A DNA stretch of 64,000 nucleotides from Desulfuromusa sp. (lineage in GTDB: Bacteria; Desulfobacterota; Desulfuromonadia; Desulfuromonadales; Geopsychrobacteraceae): assembly GCA_016744675.1 (NCBI GenBank), contig JADGDX010000002.1, positions 57,238-121,237 on the forward strand, written 5' to 3'. Under the pieces are notes generated by a model, which made no database searches, was not told where the DNA came from, and saw nothing but the letters and a program-made list of their open reading frames with translations. Positions 47,026 through 47,912 of the stretch are shown in pieces; the stretch's first letter is position 1, and the number at the start of each line of letters is the position of its first letter. Both the position numbers and the translations under genes were made by a program.

Positions 47026-47059
47026 TCCGGGGGAACGCATGAATTGACGTTCCCCCGGA
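47026..47059. terminator. Terminator between the selenoprotein and the receiver gene
   Basis: A perfect 12-bp GC-rich stem (47026-47037 with 47048-47059) around a 10-base loop. On the minus strand it runs into a T-tract (A-run at 47020-47025), so it terminates the receiver gene; on the plus strand it would act as a hairpin with little T-run. Confidence 0.8.
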
Positions 47060-47595: not shown

Positions 47596-47647
47596 ATAAT
47601 TGCCCTCGGAAAATGACTTTTTTCTTCAGCCACAATCGCTCAAACAC

Positions 47648-47680
47648 AAAAAACGCCATCTCAAAGAAAGAGATGACGTT
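47648..47680 (-). terminator. Riboswitch expression-platform terminator
   Basis: On the minus strand a 10-bp stem with one mismatch (ACGTCATCTC with GAGATGGCGT, 7-base loop) is followed by six T residues. It lies between the riboswitch core and the receiver start, the expected place for a transcriptional ON/OFF switch. Confidence 0.8.
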
Positions 47681-47703
47681 CGTAAATATCGACCCGTCAT
47701 ATT

Positions 47704-47805
47704 GCTTAACTCTGAGGTAACCCGGCGATCCTTTTATGTTTAAAAAATTAAGGACCCGTGGCTTTGCGTCACCAGATTTCTCTGACTTTGCTTTTATCAA
47801 TCACA
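47704..47805 (-). ncRNA. GEMM-I cyclic dinucleotide riboswitch (probable cyclic AMP-GMP type)
   Basis: On the minus strand the core reads GCAAAGTC, a CAGA-GAAA-TCTG hairpin with a GNRA tetraloop, then GTGACGCAAAGCCACGGGTC, a stem GGTCCTT / AAGGATC, and GCCGGGTTACC. These match the GEMM-I consensus segments in order, including the near-invariant GACGCAAAGCC. The base just before GCAAA is A. By alignment with the V. cholerae Vc2 riboswitch this corresponds to position 20, where G favours c-di-GMP and A is found in the Geobacter GEMM-Ib class that senses 3',3'-cyclic AMP-GMP. The riboswitch call is firm; ligand type is an inference. Confidence 0.88.
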
Positions 47806-47912
47806 CCAAGCTTATTTATTTCTAATGTTTAAAGATTAATACAATGCCCTTTCCATGTCAATATTTATAATAGATATCTGCTTAAATGACTGAAATTGCA
47901 GCATTTCAATCG

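Follow-up and report, generated by a model that had tools for sequence, protein, structure and literature searches.

A GEMM-I aptamer with adenine at the ligand-selective position and an intrinsic terminator precede a single-domain receiver gene in Desulfuromusa sp.

The window, namely the whole 64-kb stretch of DNA that was analysed, belongs to a genome of 2.89 Mb in 166 contigs. The original prediction had placed on its minus strand a GEMM-I core with a GNRA hairpin, an intrinsic terminator and, as the first gene, a lone single-domain receiver. The covariance model RF01051 (c-di-GMP-I, GEMM-I) detected the aptamer with 64.5 bits (E 2.5e-10) against a gathering cut-off of 35 bits, the match spanning the full model (1-87), and no other Rfam family matched in the 64-kb window. 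The aptamer core was complete, comprising GACGCAAAGCC, a GAAA loop on P2 and GCCGGGTTACC. Along the minus strand, the aptamer match is followed by 31 nt, the terminator, 55 nt and the ATG of the receiver ORF (Table 1). The terminator, predicted at 47648-47680, was placed within three bases of that position, with a 12-pair stem and a T run. As a second terminator-like hairpin follows the receiver gene, a one-gene transcript is likely. These parts of the original prediction were thus borne out.

Table 1. Features of the aptamer-receiver locus (window positions)
Feature	Position	Strand	Basis
GEMM-I aptamer, P2 and P3 core	47713..47802	minus	RF01051, 64.5 bits
Ligand-selective base, A, equivalent to Vc2 G20	47792	minus	Rfam alignment and Vc2 numbering (PMC7288161)
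Predicted P1, 5' strand	47805..47811	minus	minimum-energy fold of transcript ending before terminator loop
Predicted P1, 3' strand	47704..47710	minus	minimum-energy fold of transcript ending before terminator loop
Candidate antiterminator hairpin, occupying the terminator 5' arm	47673..47700	minus	minimum-energy fold; matched by 24% of shuffled linkers, weak
Intrinsic terminator, 12 pairs, then T run, ahead of receiver gene	47651..47681	minus	terminator scan; pairing in relatives
Single-domain receiver, 152 aa	47137..47595	minus	ORF; Pfam Response_reg 1.1e-8; low-confidence receiver-like model
Terminator-like hairpin 3' of receiver gene, 13 pairs, 9 G-C	47026..47059	minus	terminator scan

The Pfam analysis detected Response_reg as the sole domain of the first gene product, at residues 36-147. 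The structure model of this protein had low confidence (pLDDT 62.8, with three sequences in the alignment), and its structural matches included receivers such as Spo0F and CpxR. The alignment with CpxR showed conservation of D86, T114 and K136, of which we take D86 to be the phosphoacceptor and the other two to be conserved receiver residues. The acidic pair for Mg2+ was incomplete, as D40 was present and the second acid was replaced by R41. The second acidic position was occupied by N in the ortholog from another species of the genus (G004), and the Malonomonas copy carried E-R. Given the Arg at an acidic position, it is uncertain from the sequence whether the window receiver is phosphorylated.

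The closest named relatives possessing the receiver were a Desulfuromusa sp. MAG and then Malonomonas rubra; no RF01051 match was found upstream of the Malonomonas ortholog. The ortholog in G004, with 53% identity, was preceded by its own RF01051 match, which also has A20, and by the same terminator. Identity between the window and G004 was 82% in the aptamer and 87% in the terminator but 32% in the linker, indicating that the unit of receiver, A20 aptamer and terminator has been kept over divergence. The receiver gene of G004 is followed by a gene for an MshEN-receiver protein (Pfam) and then by one running off the contig, whose product reads like a multi-PAS sensor protein, whereas the receiver gene in the window's genome stands alone without this downstream run. 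The MshEN-receiver partner was not found in the window's genome; the best match there (G000:C117, 52%) looks paralogous and had no RF01051 match in the stretch examined. Five elements of the window's family have a long P3 and the terminator in common, and the genes behind them encode the receiver in two cases, a receiver-like protein of 121-124 aa in another two and an uncharacterised small protein in the fifth. Within the family, a conserved protein about 130 aa long is also encoded repeatedly downstream of A20 elements or in their vicinity (L090:4005-4409, L097:333-746 and L104:1793-2188).

The terminator scan found three terminators when 1.6 were expected from shuffling, which is weak evidence alone, and the fold of the 183-nt leader barely exceeded its shuffles (z -1.46). 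Among the five relatives the terminator stem was paired in 55 of 55 cells, the substitutions being confined to a single side of it, while identity of the linker was just 32-58%. The minimum-energy fold of a transcript ending before the terminator loop contained P1, P2, P3 and the linker hairpin listed in Table 1 as a candidate antiterminator. In longer or full transcripts of the window, the terminator formed and the aptamer 3' end was paired elsewhere. The antiterminator was rejected as a significant hairpin and is kept as a candidate only, since shuffled linkers equalled it at fractions of 0.24, 0.12, 0.54, 0.05 and 0.66 in the five relatives.

At RF01051 model position 11, where the consensus has G, the window has A. 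The Vc2 contacts with the ligand are given as G14 C15 A16 C17 A18 G19 G21 ... C46 A47 A48 A49 G50 in PMC7288161, placing G20 immediately 5' of G21-C22-AAA, and the base of the window thus corresponds to Vc2 position 20, as had been predicted. The P2 pairs of the window aptamer are the standard G21-C46 and C22-G45 (Vc2 numbers), and it lacks the lower P2 pair C21-G46 seen in the GEMM-Ib aptamer crystallised from Geobacter. The latter pair is described as C15-G40 beside A14 in PMC6274999 and PMC7288161, which is C21-G46 in Vc2 numbers. The pocket of the window aptamer therefore resembles that of Vc2 with G20A, for which a structure with cGAMP exists (4YB1; PMC6274999). The C21-G46 pair is a trait of the crystallised Geobacter member, its requirement for GEMM-Ib being only putative. 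When bases 21 and 46 were left free in the search pattern, which gave any match in 90 of 277 genomes, A20 with the standard 21-46 pair predominated in the class and the C21-G46 type was rarer. Judging from these bases, the window aptamer likely binds 3',3'-cGAMP and may prefer it over c-di-GMP. The predicted assignment to the cGAMP-binding GEMM-Ib class thus stood as far as A20 is concerned, but was qualified by the missing Geobacter C21-G46 pair and by the Geobacter omcST switch, a GEMM-Ib member sensing both ligands according to PMC6456294.

The window's genome had 19 GGDEF matches, and the base-reading position was Asp in most of those listed. A search for a Hypr GGDEF synthase, proposed with the original prediction, detected a GacA-like gene (L193/L080), a 464-codon open frame encoding a receiver-GGDEF protein with the GGDEF motif and, at the site equivalent to PleD Asp344, the Hypr-diagnostic Ser. 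Its best PDB match was 6d9m (E 4.3e-49; runner-up, 1.9e-37), a receiver-GAF-GGDEF cyclase fused to endolysin, which we take to be the Geobacter GacA structure of PMC6456294, and the Ser was aligned in this match. As a GacA-like Hypr GGDEF protein with this Ser is encoded, 3',3'-cGAMP is probably produced in the host by this cyclase. Across the order, 130 of 136 genomes had matches to GacA with E<=1e-40, and in 118 of these the E-value was below 1e-60. The window's genome also encodes a HAMP-like protein combining Ser with a GGDDY motif (L083:1225-2574), which resembles GSU1937 as described (PMC8835794) and is a possible second cGAMP synthase. Another GGDEF protein (L084:6509-7219) has a GGEEF motif and Asn at the base-reading position, usually Asp and Ser in Hypr enzymes; this Asn could bear on base choice.

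RF01051 matched five times in the window's genome, one match being weak (42 bits). A second A20 GEMM-I element (G000:C133:100263-100354; L084:3264-3355) lies ahead of a gene for a 121-aa protein, which had no Pfam match and carries Asn where the phosphoacceptor Asp would be; in our reading of the sequence, it is a receiver relative. A relative of this element in G008 likewise lies ahead of a receiver-like gene. Genes for DUF4019, pentapeptide-like, HDOD and GGDEF proteins occur downstream of the 121-aa gene, and the Asn-containing GGDEF protein is encoded a few genes past the element. The weak match of 42 bits (G000:C115:5702-5787; L005, L086) has A20 together with a Geobacter-like lower P2 pair of the C21-G46 type and precedes a methyltransferase-like gene. 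A tandem pair of G20 elements (G000:C111:108237-108552; L085) is followed by a gene for a 1026-aa exported repeat-type protein, and one copy of the pair matches the c-di-GMP-I-UAU model as well.

Of the 136 genomes in the order, 57 had the A20 pattern, AGCAAA-N14-24-GACGCAAARCC, and the reversed control of this pattern gave 0 matches in the window's genome. Among the matches listed there were 93 distinct A20 elements, for which 88 first genes were scanned. The domains detected were Response_reg (14), GGDEF (13), EAL (11), FIST (5), PilZ (5) and MCPsignal (3). The receiver target had been presented as exceptional, which was overstated in view of the 14 Response_reg proteins among these 88. Further single-receiver proteins were found behind other A20 elements, L120 (168 aa), L149 (145 aa) and L124 (via similarity to L206), so the receiver is a recurrent target class. 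In two samples of G20 elements, the first genes were led by those for Ig-like and fn3 repeat proteins (He_PIG in 11/48, fn3 in 6/41), with Response_reg in 2/48 and 2/41 and GGDEF in 1/48 and 2/41. Pooled comparison gave 14/88 for A20 against 4/89 for G20 for Response_reg (p 0.013) and 13/88 against 3/89 for GGDEF (p 0.009), in both cases with genes that are non-independent (ortholog groups) and G20 samples that are non-random. Histidine kinases occurred behind A20 and G20 elements alike. Over the order-wide loci (L036-L312), A20 first genes lean to signalling and G20 first genes to surface repeat proteins.

Three groups of homologous first genes, plus one large mixed group, combined A20 and G20 elements. 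A receiver protein of about 250 aa was found behind A20 (L113, L114, L116, L117 and L148) and also behind G20 (L199 and L207), a possible sign that a single target has switched ligand. The aptamer tree, built from 117 of 158 elements of roughly 60-90 bases each, required 26 changes at A20 compared with 38.9 on average, and never fewer than 33, after shuffling, a weak signal according to which A20 clusters in part, yet changes often. Two candidate correlates of A20 were rejected. C for A before GCCGGG in P3 was present in 11/61 A20 and 7/56 G20 elements (p 0.45), the search expression having left 32/93 A20 and 9/65 G20 elements unmatched and out of the test. GacA failed as a specific predictor, as G20 co-occurs with it likewise: A20 was found in 56 of 118 genomes with strong GacA (E<1e-60) and in 1 of 18 without, the 18 being mostly of one family, and G20 in 89/118 and 4/18, respectively.

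From the observed aptamer, its A20, the terminator, the gene order, the conservation in a second species and the cyclase gene, we infer the ligand, the switch direction and the function of the receiver. The explanation we favour, with somewhat more confidence than doubt, is that an A20 GEMM-I aptamer with an otherwise standard pocket acts as a transcriptional ON switch for a one-gene receiver unit, most likely binding cGAMP from the GacA-like cyclase and perhaps c-di-GMP too. The ligand and P1 would retain the aptamer 3' end (C92 region), the freed linker would fold into a hairpin blocking the terminator 5' arm, and polymerase would then read through into the receiver gene; with no ligand, the terminator would form. 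The neighbouring genes in G004 suggest that the receiver might serve a kinase, either as a partner or as an element accepting phosphate. The folds of the cut and longer transcripts are consistent with an ON switch of the kind described for pilM and the Geobacter regulon. The published GEMM-Ib genes drop on deletion of gacA (PMC6456294), suggesting that they are ON switches, and the pilM riboswitch is an ON switch (PMC9262584). Because the linker hairpin was no clearer than shuffled linkers in the five relatives, the ON direction rests mainly on this literature.

The opposite direction, in which the ligand-stabilised aptamer permits the terminator and receiver expression falls, is unlikely in our view. 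The aptamer is separate from the terminator and one transcript can form both, and in the C133 relative a strand of P1 lies next to the linker hairpin, an arrangement that could favour OFF. Against this, the published GEMM-Ib switches are ON (PMC9262584, PMC6456294), and the cut transcript folds with the aptamer intact and the antiterminator hairpin formed alongside it. The terminator wins in the full-transcript fold of the window, and predicted folds cannot settle the direction. A decayed switch, whose aptamer no longer regulates and whose receiver is constitutive or silent, appears very improbable: the unit was seen in only two species and the receiver pocket is partly altered (R41), but the core, P2, P3 and terminator are intact and were kept in G004 despite linker drift.

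It is possible, though we rather doubt it, that an A20 switch with a G21-C46 pocket is occupied by both ligands at their cellular concentrations or prefers c-di-GMP, the receiver then following total cyclic dinucleotide. The pocket equals that of Vc2 G20A and not that of the crystallised Geobacter aptamer, point changes in lower P2 shift affinity and selectivity (PMC9262584), and dual sensing by omcST offers a precedent. The many GGDEF proteins of the genome, mostly with Asp at the base-reading position among those listed, agree with this possibility as well. However, the A20G change by itself is reported to shift the selectivity of the Gmet_0970 switch from cGAMP to c-di-GMP (PMC6456294), which indicates that much of the preference lies in A20, and A20 was retained in the aptamer of the G004 ortholog.

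The window element, most likely a cGAMP-responsive ON switch, shares with the Geobacter GEMM-Ib elements (pilM, Gmet_0970 and pgcA/GSU1761) the GEMM-I fold, A20, a transcription terminator platform and a genome with a GacA-type Hypr GGDEF. It differs from them in having G21-C46 and C22-G45 instead of the C21-G46 type, in coming from another bacterial family and in its receiver target, whereas the Geobacter targets are cytochrome and pilus genes. Its ligand-facing bases are, as far as the alignment shows, the same as those of Vc2 G20A, but 4YB1 is an engineered mutant and the window aptamer occurs naturally, accompanied by a terminator and a target gene that is conserved. GEMM-Ia elements, such as the C111 tandem pair with its exported repeat-type target, have the same fold and other core bases, but with G20. 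A literature search, with subscription journals mostly outside its scope, found no paper on this Desulfuromusa GEMM/receiver case or on cGAMP riboswitches in Desulfuromonas. As similar A20-receiver pairings recur in relatives, the case is new and the kind is known.

A broader, speculative view, which we consider rather improbable, is that in Desulfuromonadales A20 elements would respond to cGAMP and control mainly signalling genes (receivers, GGDEF/EAL and chemotaxis), G20 elements would respond to c-di-GMP and control mainly surface proteins, and a point change would move genes between the two networks. The window receiver would then take part in a cGAMP-phosphorelay loop that might act back on GacA, a protein that itself combines a receiver with GGDEF. 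If the A20/G20 target split holds, a single base would decide which second messenger governs a gene. Natural A20 aptamers with a standard pocket provide material for asking whether A20 alone sets ligand choice. The locus suggests that likely cGAMP riboswitch control extends past the electron-transfer genes of Geobacter to the signalling layer of Desulfuromusa-like bacteria.
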